Shown piece after piece: positions 20,196 through 64,000 of a stretch of 64,000 nt of DNA. Position numbers and translations under genes: made by a program. The notes beneath the pieces were generated by a model. It was not told the origin of the DNA. It did not search any database and was given only the letters and a program-made list of their open reading frames with translations. The stretch's first letter is position 1. Each line of letters begins with the position of its first letter. The DNA comes from Rhodanobacter lindaniclasticus (lineage in GTDB: Bacteria > Pseudomonadota > Gammaproteobacteria > Xanthomonadales > Rhodanobacteraceae): the NCBI RefSeq assembly GCF_004799035.1, contig NZ_MWIO01000014.1, positions 1-64,000 on the forward strand. Direction: 5' to 3'.

Positions 20196-21278
20196 TCACC
20201 CGAGCGCCAGCACATCGCCGAGCAGCGCCTGCGCGGTCACCTCCGGCCCGGCGCCCGGACCCTGGATCACCAGCGGCTGGGTGTTGTAGCGGGTGGTGGT
20301 GAGGGCGAACTGGTTGTCGGTGCCATACAGGCGCGCGGCCGGATGGGTCAGCGGCACTTCGGCCAGGCCCACACGGGCCAGGCCGCGCTGGTTGAGGCGG
20401 GCGAGGAAGCGCAGCACGCAACCGCGCGAGGCGGCCTCGGCGTGACGCGCGGCAAGCGGCGCGTCCAGTTCGCCCAGTCGCGCCAGGAACGTGTCGGCAT
20501 CGAGCGAGCGCAGCGCCTCGGGCACCAGGCCTTCCACCTGCACCTCGTCGCTGCCCAGCGAGAAGCCGGCGTTGCGCGCGAGGATCAACAGCTTGCGCGC
20601 CACGTCCTCGCCGGACAGGTCCGAGCGCGGGTCGGGCTCGGTATAGCCCAGCCGACGCGCCTCGCGCAGCAGCTCGGAGAACGGCCGGCTGCCGTCGTAC
20701 TGGTTGAACAGCCACGACAGCGAGCCGGAGAACACCCCCTCCAGGGCGAGCAGGTGATCGCCGCACGCGCGCAGCCTGCGCAAGGTGGACAGCACCGGCA
20801 GACCGGCGCCGACCGTCGCCGAATCACCATAACGGCCGCTGCCATTCAGCGCCGCCTGCAGCGCACGCCAACCCGAGAGTTCGCCGCCAGCCAGTGCCTT
20901 GTTCGCGGTGACCACGTGATAGCCGTGCGCCAGCCACTCCGCATGGCGCGCGGCCAGCATCGCGCTGGCGGTGGCGTCGACGATCACCTTCGTCGGCGCT
21001 TCGCTGGCATCCAGCGCCGCGAGCAGGCTGGCGTTGTCACGCGGCGCGCCGTGCTGGTTGAGCTGGTCGCGCAGGCCGCGCCGGGCGAGTCGCTGCGGAT
21101 CGGTCTGCTGGCGCCGCGAATTCGCCGCGCCGACCAGGCGCAGCGAACGCGCCGCGTCGGTGTTGAGCAGCTTGAGCAGGGCGCCGCCCACCACGCCGGT
21201 GCCGAGCAGCACGATCGCCGTGGCCGATGTCGCTGCACCGCGCGCGTGGATCGTATGCTCGGCCAGCACCGCGTTCAT
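20196..21278 (-). CDS. hom: Homoserine dehydrogenase (monofunctional)
   Basis: A 360-residue NAD(P)-dependent enzyme that reduces aspartate semialdehyde to homoserine, the branch-point precursor of methionine and threonine. The nucleotide-binding motif GTGVVGG is at 26-32, NKALAG at 126-131, and the catalytic-domain signature EPDPRSDLSGEDVARK carries the conserved Lys. There is neither an aspartokinase domain nor a C-terminal ACT domain, so it resembles the catalytic half of ThrA/MetL without allosteric parts. The ATG overlaps the metB stop (ATGA), placing it third in the metX-metB-hom operon. Confidence 0.93.
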   Translation of the reverse strand: MNAVLAEHTIHARGAATSATAIVLLGTGVVGGALLKLLNTDAARSLRLVGAANSRRQQTDPQRLARRGLRDQLNQHGAPRDNASLLAALDASEAPTKVIVDATASAMLAARHAEWLAHGYHVVTANKALAGGELSGWRALQAALNGSGRYGDSATVGAGLPVLSTLRRLRACGDHLLALEGVFSGSLSWLFNQYDGSRPFSELLREARRLGYTEPDPRSDLSGEDVARKLLILARNAGFSLGSDEVQVEGLVPEALRSLDADTFLARLGELDAPLAARHAEAASRGCVLRFLARLNQRGLARVGLAEVPLTHPAARLYGTDNQFALTTTRYNTQPLVIQGPGAGPEVTAQALLGDVLALG

Positions 21279-22465
21279 GCGGGCACCCGGCGTTTGGACG
21301 TCCGTACCGCTTCGGCCCGGGCCAGCGCGGCGTCGACGTCGCGCAGCAGGTCGTCGCCATCCTCGATGCCCACCGACACGCGCAGCAGGCTGTCGGAGAT
21401 GCCGGCCGTGCGCCGCGCCTCCGGCGCCATCGAGGCGTGCGTCATGGTCGCCGGGTGGGCGATCAGGCTTTCCACGCCGCCCAGCGATTCGGCCAGCGAG
21501 AAGTAGTCCAGTCCATCGACGAAAGCCTCGATCTGCGGGACCTCGCCGTCCAGTTCGAAACTGAGCATGGCGCCGAAACCGAGTTGCTGGCGCGCCGCCA
21601 GCACGTGACCGGCGTGGCCGGACAATCCCGGGTAGTAGACCTTGCGCACGGCCGCGTGGCCGTCCAGCCGCTCGGCCAGGCGCGCTGCGTTCTCCTGGTG
21701 CTGGCGCAGGCGCACGCCCAGCGTGCGCAGGCCGCGCAGGGTGAGGTAGCTGTCGAACGGCGCGCCGGTGAGCCCGGTGCAGTTGGCCCACCACTTCAGC
21801 TGCTCGGCCACCGCCGCGTCGCGCGCCACCACCGCGCCGCCGACCACGTCGCTGTGGCCGTTGATGTACTTGGTGGTCGAGTGCACCACCACGTCCGCGC
21901 CGAGCAGCAGGGGCTGCTGCAGCGCCGGCGACAGGAAGGTGTTGTCCACCACCAGCAGCGCGCCGGCCGCGTGCGCGGCTTGCGCGACATGGCGGATGTC
22001 GGTGATCCGCAACAGCGGATTGGATGGCGTCTCCGCCCACACCAGCGCCGGCTTGCGCGCCAGCGCCGCGGCCAGCGCCACGTTGTCGGTGAGGTCGGCG
22101 AACTCGACCGCGAAGCGGCCCTTCTTCGCCCACGCATCGAGCAGGCGCCAGCTGCCGCCGTAGCAGTCGTGCGCGGCCAGCACGGTGGCACCGGGCGGCA
22201 CCAGCTCCAGCACCAGCGCCACCGCTGACATGCCGCTGGAAGTGACCACCGCGCCGGCACCCTGCTCCAGCTCCGCCAGCGCCTCGGCCAGCAGGTCACG
22301 GGTGGGATTGCCGCTGCGCGAATAGTCGTAGGCACGCTTGCGGCCGAAGCCCTCGAAGCTGTAGTTGGTCGACAGGTGCAAGGCAGGCACCACGGCGCCG
22401 TGCTGGGTGTCGCTTTCGATGCCGGCGCGCACGGCGCGGGTACAGGGGGCGGGGGTGGCGCTCAT
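21275..22465 (-). CDS. metB: Cystathionine gamma-synthase / PLP trans-sulfuration enzyme
   Basis: A 396-residue PLP enzyme joining an O-acylhomoserine with cysteine (or sulfide) towards methionine. The PLP lysine is Lys199 (HSTTKYINGH). SSGMSA and ETPSNP, which contact the cofactor and substrate, are present, as is LAESLGGVESL near the C-terminus. MetB, MetC and MetZ-like enzymes are hard to separate; MetB is favoured by its place between metX and hom. The start at 22465 is backed by GGAG 6 bases upstream; an in-frame ATG at 22549 lies within the REP-containing leader. A 4-base overlap couples it to hom. Confidence 0.92.
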   Translation of the reverse strand: MSATPAPCTRAVRAGIESDTQHGAVVPALHLSTNYSFEGFGRKRAYDYSRSGNPTRDLLAEALAELEQGAGAVVTSSGMSAVALVLELVPPGATVLAAHDCYGGSWRLLDAWAKKGRFAVEFADLTDNVALAAALARKPALVWAETPSNPLLRITDIRHVAQAAHAAGALLVVDNTFLSPALQQPLLLGADVVVHSTTKYINGHSDVVGGAVVARDAAVAEQLKWWANCTGLTGAPFDSYLTLRGLRTLGVRLRQHQENAARLAERLDGHAAVRKVYYPGLSGHAGHVLAARQQLGFGAMLSFELDGEVPQIEAFVDGLDYFSLAESLGGVESLIAHPATMTHASMAPEARRTAGISDSLLRVSVGIEDGDDLLRDVDAALARAEAVRTSKRRVPA

Positions 22466-22500
22466 GTCAATCTCCAGATCGTATGCGTCGTGCGTTTGTT

Positions 22501-22561
22501 GTAGGGCGGGCACTGCCCGCCAACGTCTTGACGGGCGCGCGGCGGGCAATGCCCGCCCTAC
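22501..22561. repeat. REP doublet between metX and metB
   Basis: Two GGCGGGCAnTGCCCGCC palindromes (22505-22522 region and 22541-22557) in opposite orientation are separated by about 18 bases, bounded by GTAGG and CCTAC. The CTA at 22558-22560 is the metX stop codon. The same palindrome core occurs at 2866. It may tune mRNA stability between metX and metB. Confidence 0.8.
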
Positions 22562-23568
22562 AGACCCAATGCTTCGCGCAGCAGCGGGGTGAGTTGTTCG
22601 GGTTCTTTGAGGAAGGCGTCATGGCCGTACGGGGACTCCACCACTTCCAGCGTGGCCGGGCCGCGCAGGCGACGCTGCAGTTCGCAGAGATCGGCCAGCG
22701 GCACGAGCCGGTCGGAGGGGAAGCCAATCAGCGTCGCCGGCACCGCCACTTGTTCGGGCTCGACCTGATGCAGGTCGATCGACTCGGACAGGGCGAGGAA
22801 GCGATCGGCATCGAAGCGCTCGACGAAACGCCGGCCCTGGTGCTCCAGGTAATCCTCGACCGGGAAATGGAAGCGCTCCCCACGCTGCTCGGGCGCGCCG
22901 GCGAAGCGGCGGCCGAATTCGGCGCTGCCGCGATAGGTGGTGATCGCCAGCTGCCGCGCCAGCGCCAGCGCCTCGTCGACACGGTCGCTGGCCTGGCCCA
23001 GCCGCACGATGCCGCGCTGCACGCTGCGCTGGGCGGTGCTGAGCGGGTGCGGCCGGTGCGCGCCGGCCAGCAGCACCAGCCGCTCCACGGCGCCCGGATG
23101 GCGGGCGGCGAAGGCCAGCGCCACCATCGCCCCATAGGACGAACCGACGAAGGCATGCGCGCGGGTGATGCCCAGGGCGCGCAGCAGGCCAGCCAGCGCG
23201 TCGGCCTGGTCCTCGCTGGAGACCGCGTCGGCGCCAAGTTGCGCGCGGTCCAGCCAGTCGATCGACAGCACCCGGCAGCGCGCGAGGTCGATCGCCGCGC
23301 CGTCGTCGGCCAGCTCCCGCCACCAGCCTGCCGCTCCGCTGACATCGCGATCGGCCGAGATGCCGCCTTGCACGATCACCGTGGGCGCACCCGCCGCACC
23401 ATGCCAGGCGTAAGCGACCTCGACCTCGCGCGCACCGTTGCCGTACTTCGGCGCCAGGGTCACACGGCGACTGCCGCGCCGGGCGGTCAGGCGCAGGGAC
23501 GGTTCCGCCGACGGCAGGAACGCGTCATGCAGGGTGTCGATACATCGGGCTGGGGACTGCAAGGTCAT
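22558..23568 (-). CDS. metX: Homoserine O-acyltransferase (MetX type)
   Basis: A 336-residue alpha/beta-hydrolase-fold enzyme that acylates homoserine (acetyl or succinyl) to open methionine synthesis. The nucleophile elbow is GSSYGA (Ser144), with Asp286 (FPSDRLVP) and His316 (YGHDAFL) completing the triad. Whether it uses acetyl-CoA or succinyl-CoA cannot be settled; Xanthomonadales relatives often prefer succinyl-CoA. The start MTLQSP at 23568 has GGAG 8 bases upstream; several upstream in-frame ATGs up to 23661 lie just after the riboswitch. The TAG stop lies in a REP repeat. It is first in the operon with metB and hom. Confidence 0.9.
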   Translation of the reverse strand: MTLQSPARCIDTLHDAFLPSAEPSLRLTARRGSRRVTLAPKYGNGAREVEVAYAWHGAAGAPTVIVQGGISADRDVSGAAGWWRELADDGAAIDLARCRVLSIDWLDRAQLGADAVSSEDQADALAGLLRALGITRAHAFVGSSYGAMVALAFAARHPGAVERLVLLAGAHRPHPLSTAQRSVQRGIVRLGQASDRVDEALALARQLAITTYRGSAEFGRRFAGAPEQRGERFHFPVEDYLEHQGRRFVERFDADRFLALSESIDLHQVEPEQVAVPATLIGFPSDRLVPLADLCELQRRLRGPATLEVVESPYGHDAFLKEPEQLTPLLREALGL

Positions 23569-23685
23569 GCCAGTGACTCCGGTCGGCATCGCCCCGCGGG
23601 GGACCGGAGTGGCCATCACCCCTTGCTCGGCGGCACGGGCCGCGAAACGGGTGACGCCCATCTACCGGCAGGTGCACCGCGCACC

Positions 23686-23777
23686 TCCGCAGGAGTTGGC
23701 ACCTTGACGGAAACGCTCCGCAGGTTGCCCCGGCTTCAAAGGGCCTGTCCCTCAGCCGGTCTCGATGAGTGGGCGGA
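23686..23777 (-). promoter_or_regulatory. SAM-I (S-box) riboswitch upstream of metX
   Basis: The minus strand carries the SAM-I consensus in order: CTCATCGAGA, GAGGGACAGGCCC, TTTGAAGCCGGGGCAACC and AAGGTGCCAACTCC. P1 pairs TCCGC (23773-23777) with GCGGA (23686-23690). A GGTGC/GCACC hairpin lies directly downstream and then the metX start region, so control is probably at translation or by early termination. SAM binding should shut off metX-metB-hom. Confidence 0.93.
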
Positions 23778-23806
23778 TGGTGGCTCCTCGAACGCCTCAT
23801 GTCAAT

Positions 23807-23830
23807 AGACGTCTAAACATCTAAACGTTT
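23807..23830. promoter_or_regulatory. Tandem met-box-like operator (three 8-mers)
   Basis: AGACGTCT, AAACATCT and AAACGTTT lie head to tail with no spacer. The first equals the E. coli MetJ met-box consensus; the other two each differ from it at two positions. They sit between the SAM-I aptamer (30 bases away) and the divergent dioxygenase gene, so a repressor here could control both directions. No metJ gene is in the window. Confidence 0.6.
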
Positions 23831-23949
23831 ATATGGGTGCATGACATTTTTTCGATACTTCGGGCATCGGCGGCGGACAGTGCTCGCACTGCGTATTGCC
23901 GGGGTGGCGCACTGTCGGGCTGCGGGGGATGCTGCTACCGTGTCGCTCC

Positions 23950-24699
23950 ATGACTCCCCCTCTCGACCGCCCCGCCTTGCAGGCCCGCCTGCATCGCGAC
24001 GGCTTCGCCTTCGTCACCGCCGAGCACATGCGCCAGTTGCTGCCGATGCCGGAGATGGACGACTGGCCGGCCTTTCGCGCCAGCTGGAACGATCTGGCAC
24101 CGGATACCTATCTGGCGGCGGTCGGCCGGCATCGCAGCCGGCGCCACGCCACCTTCGCGATCGAGCCGGACGGCACGCTGCAGCGCCAGCCGCACCAGCC
24201 GCACTGGCAGAGCGCGCGCTACAACTCGCTGCAAGGCGACATCCAGCGCTGGTTCCTGCCGATCCGGCCGGCGCTGGCCGGTGGCGCCAGCATGCGCAGC
24301 ATCCTGCAGTTCGCGCACGCGCTGTTCGCCCCGATGGCGGCCGGCGTGCCGCACCACTGGCATGTCGAGACGCACCAGTTCCGCATCGAGGCGCGCGCCG
24401 ACGAACCGGGCGAGCCCACCCCCGAGGGCGTCCATCACGACGGCGTCGACTACGTGCTGGTGCTGCTGATCGACCGCCAGAACATCGAGAGCGGCACCAC
24501 CACCATCCACGCCGACGACGGCGCGTTGCTGGGCAGCTTCACCCTCGCCCATCCGCTGGACGCGGCGATGGTCATCGACGCCCGCGTCAGCCATGGCGTC
24601 ACCGCGGTGACCCCGATCGACCCGGCGCAACCCGCCCACCGCGACGTACTGGTGGTGACCTTTCGCGCCACCCCGCCTGCGGCGACATCGCCCGCCTGA
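23950..24699 (+). CDS. 2-oxoglutarate/Fe(II) dioxygenase, IDO-like (PF10014 type)
   Basis: A 249-residue protein of the bacterial 2OG-Fe dioxygenase family that includes L-isoleucine dioxygenase. The iron ligands are visible as HHD (His162/Asp164) and His215 (SHGVTAV), with RDVLVVTFR supplying the 2OG-binding arginine. HHWHVETHQFRI is a family feature. Members hydroxylate or sulfoxidise free aliphatic amino acids, including methionine and leucine; this substrate is not known. The start at 23950 was chosen over 23896, which adds 18 residues without family similarity. It is divergent from metX across the met-box-like array, hinting at a link with methionine metabolism. Confidence 0.85.
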   Translation: MTPPLDRPALQARLHRDGFAFVTAEHMRQLLPMPEMDDWPAFRASWNDLAPDTYLAAVGRHRSRRHATFAIEPDGTLQRQPHQPHWQSARYNSLQGDIQRWFLPIRPALAGGASMRSILQFAHALFAPMAAGVPHHWHVETHQFRIEARADEPGEPTPEGVHHDGVDYVLVLLIDRQNIESGTTTIHADDGALLGSFTLAHPLDAAMVIDARVSHGVTAVTPIDPAQPAHRDVLVVTFRATPPAATSPA

Positions 24700-30978: not shown

Positions 30979-32409
30979 ATGCATGAGCCGGCACCACGCC
31001 ACCCGCACGGCGCTGTCGCGGCCGACTACCTTTTCGCCACGACAGTCACCCTGGCGGCTTTCGCGCTGACTTTCGTCGCCGACCGCTACCTGTCGATCGC
31101 CAATCTCTCGCTGATCCTGCTGACCGGCGTGCTCGCCGTCGCGGTGCGAAAGCGCATGGCGGTAGCCGTCTATACAGCCGTATTGTGTTTCCTCGGCTAC
31201 AACTTCTTCTTCACCCGTCCGCGGTATACGCTGGCCATCGCCAACGGCGACGACGTGCTGGCGATCGTGCTGTTCCTGATCGTCGCCCTCGTCTGCAGCC
31301 GCATGGCCACCCGGCTCTCCGACCAGGTCACTTCCCTGCGGACCGCGCAGCAGCGCGCGCGCACACTGTTGCAGCTGGGCAGGGAACTCGCCACCGCCGC
31401 CGGTGCCACGGCGATTCGCGAAGTCGGTGCTCGCGCTCTGACGAAGGCCGTCGGTGCAACCGCTCATATCAACCCAGCCGAGGAAGCATCCGCCGTCGAT
31501 CGGAACGATGATCCTGGCTGCGGGTGGCTGGTTCCGCTGACCGTCGGCGCGCACGGGCACGGCACGGTGGTGTTTGCCACGCGGGGCCCGGACGAACCCG
31601 ATGCCGAGCGGCGCGAGCTGGCCCTCGCGATGAGCCAGGACATTGCACTGGCACTGGAACGTGCCAGACTGGCGCACGAGCTCGAGCAGGCCCGCGTGCA
31701 GGGCGAAACCGAGCGGCTGCGCAACGCCCTGCTTTCCTCCGTCTCGCACGACCTGCGCTCGCCGCTGGCTTCGATGATCGGTGCCGCCGACACCCTTGCC
31801 ATGTACGAAACGCAACTGCCGCGGGCCGAACGGCAGGAGTTGCTGCAGTCGATCGTGCATGAGGGCCAGCGGCTGGACCGCTATATCCAGAACCTGCTGG
31901 ACATGACCCGGCTCGGCCATGGCACGCTCAAGCTGCATCGCGACTGGATCGATGCGACCGAAGTGGTGGTGACCGCCACCGACAGGCTTCGCCGGTTCTT
32001 CCCGGGACTGTCCATGCAGACCGCGTTGCCGCAGGAGACCGTACTGCTCTACGTGCACCCGGCGCTGATCGAGCAGGCGCTGTTCAACGTGCTGGAAAAT
32101 GCCGCGCACTTCTCTCCGCCCGGCGAGGCCGTGCGCGTGGAGGCGGCCGTGACCGGCGAACAGCTGCAGATCGAAGTGATCGATCACGGCCCGGGCATTC
32201 CGCCGGATGAGCGGGCGCGCATCTTCGACATGTTCCATTCGGTATCGCGCGGCGATCGCGGCAACAACGGCACCGGACTGGGGCTGTCGATCTGTCGCGG
32301 CATGATCGGCGCGCATGGCGGCAACGTGGAAGCGCTGGCCACCGCGGGCGGCGGCACCACCATCCGCATCACCCTGCCCCTGCCACCCGCACCGGAGAGC
32401 AACGCTTGA
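30979..32409 (+). CDS. KdpD-like sensor histidine kinase lacking the N-terminal KdpD domain
   Basis: A 476-residue membrane kinase. Residues about 15-110 are four helices of DUF4118 type as in KdpD, including FLGYNFFFTRPRYTL. A GAF-like segment follows (about 125-230), then HisKA with phosphoacceptor His257 (SVSHDLRSP), and a HATPase with NVLENAAHFSP, DHGPGIP and GTGLGLSI. E. coli KdpD has about 895 residues; the entire N-terminal cytoplasmic KdpD and UspA parts are missing, so this is a minimal KdpD. The stop overlaps the kdpE start (TTGA). It probably senses K+ or osmotic state and phosphorylates KdpE. Confidence 0.9.
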   Translation: MHEPAPRHPHGAVAADYLFATTVTLAAFALTFVADRYLSIANLSLILLTGVLAVAVRKRMAVAVYTAVLCFLGYNFFFTRPRYTLAIANGDDVLAIVLFLIVALVCSRMATRLSDQVTSLRTAQQRARTLLQLGRELATAAGATAIREVGARALTKAVGATAHINPAEEASAVDRNDDPGCGWLVPLTVGAHGHGTVVFATRGPDEPDAERRELALAMSQDIALALERARLAHELEQARVQGETERLRNALLSSVSHDLRSPLASMIGAADTLAMYETQLPRAERQELLQSIVHEGQRLDRYIQNLLDMTRLGHGTLKLHRDWIDATEVVVTATDRLRRFFPGLSMQTALPQETVLLYVHPALIEQALFNVLENAAHFSPPGEAVRVEAAVTGEQLQIEVIDHGPGIPPDERARIFDMFHSVSRGDRGNNGTGLGLSICRGMIGAHGGNVEALATAGGGTTIRITLPLPPAPESNA

Positions 32410-35199: not shown

Positions 35200-35263
35200 G
35201 GGTAGCCATTCGGTCGGGCCAGGCGCAACGGCACGACGGCGCGCCCCACCGCTGTGGCGCCGT

Positions 35264-35373
35264 CAGCCGTTGGTCTCGCCAACCAGGATCGGTGTCTTCG
35301 CCACGGCGGATGGACGCCGAGCATGTTGACGAAGACGCCTCGCGGAACGAGGCAGGCTACTCCCCAAGGGGTG
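35264..35373 (-). promoter_or_regulatory. yybP-ykoY manganese riboswitch upstream of mntP
   Basis: On the minus strand the two conserved Mn-binding halves are clear: TTGGGGAGTAGCCTG (5' part, about 35354-35368), GTCAACATGCTCGG in the middle and GGCGAGACCAACGG at the 3' end (about 35268-35281). The leader continues about 65 bases to mntP with a GACGGCGC/GGCGCGCCGTC hairpin that may be the expression platform. Confidence 0.93.
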
Positions 35374-63948: not shown

Positions 63949-64000
63949 TTACTTCTTGGTCTTGGCCTTCGGCTTTGCGGTCTTGGTGGCCTTGACCACC
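63949..64000 (-). CDS. C-terminal end of a lysine-rich protein (partial)
   Basis: Only the last 16 codons are in the window: VVKATKTAKPKAKTKK then TAA (63949-63951). This K/A/T/P-rich tail is like those of bacterial histone H1-like or AlgP-type nucleoid proteins, or basic tails of ribosome-associated proteins. The rest is outside, so the identity is open. Confidence 0.5.
   Translation of the reverse strand, partial: VVKATKTAKPKAKTKK

Follow-up and report, generated by a model that had tools for sequence, protein, structure and literature searches.

In the enterobacterial MetJ regulon, as set out in the available portions of PMC3228920 and PMC4239095, a repressor with the MetJ domain is associated with tandem AGACGTCT boxes, regulates its own gene and has metK and metE among its targets, all of which is paralleled in the bacteria considered here, the Rhodanobacteraceae. 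The family departs from this picture in that its MetJ carries a lysine/alanine-rich tail, its main target bears a SAM-I riboswitch and metF is no clear target. As far as the available text goes, MetJ is stated only in five orders by PMC3228920 and in six groups by PMC4239095, the latter with none in the four Xanthomonadales genomes surveyed.

A second point of comparison is the met operon of Xanthomonas campestris, whose SAM-I riboswitch acts mainly on translation according to the accessible sections of PMC7270179 and PMC6230763. The gene order, metA/metX, metB, hom, is the same and the aptamer likewise lies at the start of the leader; a leader of 190 nt there compares with 172-215 nt here (aptamer start to assigned metX start, 25 Rhodanobacteraceae leaders), and in both cases there is no terminator and the ribosome site sits in a hairpin. 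X. campestris lacks metJ, unlike the Rhodanobacteraceae, in the text available of PMC6230763, whereas the introduction of PMC7270179 considers that the MetR/MetJ system seems to be conserved in Xanthomonas too.

Combinations of a protein and a riboswitch are described elsewhere, again from partial texts. Met boxes precede the cobalamin (B12) riboswitch of Yersinia btuB in one leader, the two sensors there reading different ligands (PMC3228920). At mntP of E. coli a single ligand is read by a protein, MntR, and by RNA, a manganese riboswitch, as is proposed here for SAM; that system differs in being one of activation by Mn2+, not of SAM repression, and its parts are unrelated (PMC11647493). The hom-metXC operon of Oceanicaulis alexandrii joins SahR to a SAM-alpha riboswitch, and so resembles the present case in placing a protein and a riboswitch on a methionine operon, but the protein and riboswitch families are others and one genome is named (PMC4239095). 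Among the literature matches listed, no report of MetJ operators and a SAM-I riboswitch in one leader was found. The window, by which we mean the whole 64,000-nt stretch of Rhodanobacter lindaniclasticus DNA that was analysed, also holds a match to the manganese riboswitch family (RF00080, yybP-ykoY; 35204-35372, minus strand) at 46.1 bits, just above the gathering score of 45.

The met operon of the window lies on the minus strand and comprises metX, encoding a homoserine O-acyltransferase of the alpha/beta hydrolase type (22558..23568, with a predicted start at 23568; PF00561, 53 bits), a metB-like gene for a Cys/Met metabolism PLP enzyme (21275..22549; PF01053, 462.2 bits) and hom, the homoserine dehydrogenase gene (20196..21281; PF00742 and PF03447); the name metX rests on the operon context and on the X. 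campestris operon. Its leader contains a SAM-I (S-box) riboswitch aptamer (23771-23655, minus strand), which passed over the full RF00162 model (model positions 1-108) with a covariance-model score of 76.4 bits against a gathering score of 44.4 (E 3.5e-16). The first-pass annotation, which had described a clear S-box aptamer, was therefore right as to its presence, although it began the element at 23686 and the aptamer runs on to 23655. Upstream of the aptamer, and separated from it by 35 nt rather than the "within 30 bases" given previously, the three adjoining 8-mers reported there are indeed found: a predicted MetJ operator of three contiguous met boxes, AAACGTTT-AGATGTTT-AGACGTCT (23830-23807, minus strand; from the sequence and the published matrix), whose boxes, read from the sequence, occupy 23830-23823, 23822-23815 and 23814-23807 respectively.

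Arrays were defined by the rule given in the available part of PMC3228920, namely at least two adjacent 8-bp boxes, each reaching at least a quarter of the consensus score and together at least the consensus score, which with the matrix of Table 3 of that paper requires a sum of 12.58 bits. On this scale the window array reaches 30.8 bits; the window has just one further array, at 31164, which stands at noise level with 12.7 bits, and 100 base shuffles of the window gave a mean of 0.31 arrays and a best score of 18.4 bits. The 16-mer AGACGTCTAGACGTCT, with up to three mismatches allowed, matched once in the window against 0.07 matches expected, and 6 of 100 shuffles had at least one match. The observation of three met boxes upstream of a SAM-I aptamer is confirmed.

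The array is followed, after one base, by a -35 element, TTGACA (23800..23805, minus strand), and, beyond a 17-nt spacer, by a -10 element, CACCAT (23777..23782, minus strand), which matches at three of six positions and is weak in the window genome; a stricter promoter scan of 23400-23900 found no promoter. The arrangement was followed through 25 genomes of a family (f1) recognised as Rhodanobacteraceae by its named relatives, Rhodanobacter, Dyella, Luteibacter, Frateuria, Oleiagrimonas and Tahibacter. TTGAC stands at the same place in all 25, 34-39 nt before the aptamer, and in each leader the array abuts it or runs into it. When each of the 14 genera was represented by a single genome, the mean information per column was 0.92 bits in the array and 1.63 bits in TTGACA, compared with 0.05 bits in the 44 columns that precede the array. 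For the -10 element, the best matches average 3.8/6 over the family as against 2.12 for shuffled sequence, and lie 6 nt from the aptamer in 13/25 leaders, 5-7 nt in 20/25 and 5-10 nt in all 25. From this spacing, the predicted transcription start falls at 23771, the first aptamer base, or close to it, in agreement with the mapped 5'UTR of X. campestris, which is 190 nt long and of which nucleotides 1-120 correspond to the aptamer (PMC6230763, available text).

On the other side of the array, and divergent from the met operon, lies a gene for a PF10014 2OG-Fe dioxygenase (23950-24696, plus strand; Pfam). The PF10014 family includes amino-acid oxidases. As 14 of the 49 loci searched, many of them short, have a homologue in the neighbourhood of the met leader, the array may serve both directions, that is, the met operon and the PF10014 gene.

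Aptamer scores range from 65 to 92 bits across all 25 Rhodanobacteraceae genomes. No intrinsic terminator was found in 23400-23900 of the window genome, and a stem search gave a hairpin, ACTCCGGTC/GACCGGAGT (23576..23610, minus strand), which covers the ribosome-binding site GGAG and is the putative translational expression platform. The lack of a terminator together with a stem that encloses GGAG ahead of the start codon fits the translational switch of X. campestris (PMC7270179, in the part available), and we infer that the riboswitch acts on translation by way of a hairpin that would hide the ribosome-binding site. A local stem search recovered stems of at least 5 bp in 24/25 leaders of the family, not all of them containing GGAG; the energies of the ribosome-site hairpins were mostly no better than those of shuffles, and RNAalifold returned no structure from the 25 leaders, the alignment of which was poor. 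The loop of the ribosome-site hairpin (23585-23601, minus strand) reads CCGCAGG in many relatives and has its complement in the aptamer strand CCUGCGG. In 17/25 leaders the longest loop-aptamer duplex is located at platform position 48-58, with few significant against shuffles, and CCGCAGG/CCUGCGG might be entertained as a possible, if statistically weak, alternative pairing.

A survey of 151 genomes of the order, with filters in the SAM-I search by which weak matches may have been missed, found MetJ in 42 and SAM-I in 96. Both occur together in 25/25 Rhodanobacteraceae genomes; outside this family there were 17 genomes with MetJ (11 in f9 and six in f12), of which only G113 (f9) also has SAM-I, with two elements and an array at neither leader. 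In a class survey of 369 genomes, drawn thinly over families, MetJ was found in five, SAM-I in ten and both in two, each of these belonging to f1. The earlier suggestion that MetJ and the riboswitch substitute for each other across lineages thus fits the order (one of 17 outside f1) and the class alike. Within the Rhodanobacteraceae, all 25 sampled leaders have, no more than 110 nt from the aptamer, a qualifying array of two to four met boxes immediately before the -35 element; riboswitch and array are likewise present in 24/24 named genomes chosen from 80 MetJ loci, a set which overlaps the sampled 25 and includes partly the same species (e.g., by coordinates, L204 is G135 and L205 is G067). 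The 8-mers are therefore kept in close relatives, a point on which the first-pass annotation had been prepared to be refuted. No array was found within 250 nt in 36/36 SAM-I leaders of other families (76 matches were listed and 38 examined, two of which were too short to score), the two leaders of G113 being among the 36, and MetJ was absent from 12/12 genomes examined of f2, which we infer to be the Xanthomonadaceae. An X. campestris primer quoted in PMC6230763 had no close match at any of 16 loci compared, with at least three mismatches of 18 at each. A metX homologue stands beside SAM-I at all 25 Rhodanobacteraceae loci and, among the leaders examined elsewhere, in 12/12 of f2, 1/1 of f3, 2/2 of f4, 1/1 of f6 and 6/6 of f10, and less often in f5 (1/3), f8 (1/7) and f9 (0/4).

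A search of the genome for metJ, as had been proposed, located the gene on the same contig as the met operon (PF01340, 122.3 bits against a cut-off of 25). Its 3' end, which encodes part of the tail, falls within the window (63949..64000, minus strand) and the gene continues beyond the window to 64500 of contig G000:C16. A profile built from 11 MetJ domains of the family (80 residues) retrieved Met repressor chains from the PDB, including 1cma (E 1.7e-40). The proteins do not have the usual MetJ length: a lysine/alanine-rich C-terminal tail of 43-185 residues is present in 25/25 family members, that of the window genome being 38% lysine and 39% alanine, and one of 36-310 residues in all 69 complete, parsed loci of the 80 named ones, the remainder being cut by contig or locus ends (six) or unparsed (five). 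The tail was absent from 14/14 translated MetJ of f9 and f12, families in which 17 MetJ genomes were found. Residues 81-181 match the histone H1-like HC2 family (PF07382) at 33.4 bits, below the curated cut-off of 40, and the sequence likeness is to be read as a resemblance and not as membership; a single-sequence AlphaFold model of MetJ with its tail had low confidence (mean pLDDT 57) and gave the tail no predicted structure. The DERTRRQ segment, which we take to lie near the SAM pocket, is kept in 18/25 MetJ of the family and changed to DLRT[H/Y/E]RQ in 7/25, including Rhodanobacter and with it the window genome (LSDLRTHRQ in the MetJ of L001), so the SAM response of MetJ could differ in these members.

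Further candidate targets were sought with the same array rule. Two met boxes precede metJ itself (64654-64669 of contig G000:C16, outside the window; 20.7 bits), and an array is present at the metJ promoter in 16/25 sampled members and 62/79 named loci, the 17 named loci without one being from Luteibacter (five), Dyella (11) and a MAG (one). Of the arrays that the first-pass annotation had wished to see near metF, metE and metK, that of metK was found in the window genome, at 14.5 bits; metF there has none and metE was not found. Scoring all 14 metK, four metE and 14 metF loci from 14 genomes of the family gave a metK array in five genomes, the window genome included, at about 140-150 nt upstream, and none in the other nine; a metE array in three of the four genomes that have metE; and a metF array in one of 14, at threshold with 12.7 bits, which leaves metF, in other bacteria a core target, unsupported as a MetJ target. 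Other arrays were seen in two Rhodanobacter in the interval separating cysG from a LysR gene, in three genomes next to genes for TonB receptors, and in two upstream of amino-acid-kinase genes resembling aspartokinase. A regulon drawn from the 16-mer pattern by itself was rejected as noisy, with 23 sites in the window genome at up to three mismatches to two boxes and 9 of the 15 loci inspected lying inside predicted genes. Copies of GACGTCTGGACGTCC occur in and between genes of several genomes (L005, L257, L254 and others), in the manner of a dispersed repeat resembling met boxes, and the glnK-side, flagellar and other pattern matches were therefore not counted as targets. Two three-box arrays (26.1 and 29.6 bits; L007:67-90 and L008:1501-1524) were observed on C38 of G000, a phage-like contig with a replication initiation protein (phrog_2969), one of them before a small phage gene; the contig perhaps belongs to a phage that uses the host MetJ.

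The reading we favour, with a probability of about 85%, is that the met operon is under layered repression by SAM, with MetJ acting at initiation and the riboswitch at translation. SAM-loaded MetJ would bind the array next to the -35 element and, since the array abuts that element, should block RNA polymerase; transcripts that escape MetJ would then be silenced at translation by the SAM-bound aptamer. The presence of MetJ in the same genome and the retention of the boxes in every family member examined lend support to the earlier proposal of two SAM sensors. Work on one strain of Rhodanobacter, which names MetJ as a putative repressor, saw the MetJ protein rise whilst the methionine enzymes fell, which is counted in favour of the model; counted against it, in X. 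campestris the met promoter was unresponsive to methionine, so that a protein operator at the same position need not be methionine-responsive (PMC12146267 and PMC6230763 respectively, in the parts available). This reading should be considered with some caution, as the -10 element of the window genome is weak, its DERTRRQ segment is changed, metF and many metK and metJ genes are without an array, the hairpin energies are mostly within the range of shuffles, and G113 combines MetJ and two SAM-I elements with no array.

Some of these points would be accommodated if there were one layer only, either a functional MetJ operator with a relic riboswitch or the reverse: in Rhodanobacter the MetJ residues presumed to adjoin the SAM pocket are altered, and the ribosome-site hairpins are weak against shuffles. 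However, the aptamer retains its score in all 25 genomes and the array persists in 14 genera, and as a useless array or aptamer would be expected to decay, the conservation of both counts against this explanation, which we consider improbable.

Another explanation is that the array is the operator of a different regulator, such as SamR, with MetJ playing no part at this promoter. For the Xanthomonadales the methionine regulator described in the literature is SamR, with 24-bp sites of the form ATC-N10-GAT and metB, metX2 and hom among its targets (PMC4239095, available text), and SamR-type sites do occupy the same promoter position in other families: a 24-bp palindrome of the type ATCGCTTTATCCGCATAAAGCGAT, which matches that published description and runs into or up to the -35 element, was found in 18/19 SAM-I leaders of f2-f6, a count which is not independent as the motif was written from the same leaders. 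None of 200 shuffled sequences came within six mismatches of the motif. The Rhodanobacteraceae metX promoters, however, contain neither the palindrome (0/25) nor ATC-N10-GAT (0/25), and on these motifs SamR was rejected as the protein that binds here. The tandem arrangement of 8-bp boxes agrees with the MetJ matrix of PMC3228920 and, within the set of leaders inspected, is confined to the family whose 25/25 sampled members carry MetJ. We therefore hold the operator of another regulator to be very improbable, and the notion that the boxes arose by chance or from base composition, which might appeal to the 23 loosely matching sites of the window genome and the 9/15 inspected loci inside predicted genes, can be dismissed on the score of 30.8 bits against a shuffle maximum of 18.4, the single 16-mer match against 0.07 expected and the fixed place of the boxes next to TTGAC in 25/25 leaders.

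With layered control by MetJ and the riboswitch retained as the preferred reading, the comparison between families becomes one of operators. The SamR-like motif recurs at the metK promoters of the Rhodanobacteraceae, which were not used in writing it, in 11/14 at up to six mismatches and in 14/14 at up to seven; ATC-N10-GAT lies close to the metK start codon in 14/14 (L293 is one example of these promoters), and in 5/14 there is a met-box array some 100 nt beyond it on the upstream side. No operator was recognised at the SAM-I leaders of f8, f9 and f10. As the riboswitch-metX unit is shared across families, the difference lies in the protein operator, SamR-like in f2-f6 and of MetJ type in the Rhodanobacteraceae, which suggests that, from family to family, the MetJ array and the SamR-type palindrome have taken each other's place whilst the riboswitch and the operon stayed.

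For the biology of the family, the composition of the tail raises the speculative prospect that its MetJ is a hybrid of specific repressor and nucleoid protein, in which the H1-like tail would spread along or bridge DNA around met-box nuclei and couple the SAM level to local or global chromosome compaction, with the riboswitch keeping fine control of methionine supply; we regard this as doubtful, and if it were true the family would amount to a natural experiment, with one protein operator exchanged for another before a retained riboswitch. The results extend MetJ, in a form with an unusual tail, to an order (Lysobacterales) in which two published surveys did not record it, in the portions of those surveys available. 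The exchange of operators at the same promoter would allow operator turnover to be studied with the riboswitch retained. Throughout the Rhodanobacteraceae, a single promoter would be governed by a repressor protein and a riboswitch responding to one and the same metabolite, and what is gained from a second sensor, be it in range, noise, speed or leak, would thus become testable in a natural system.
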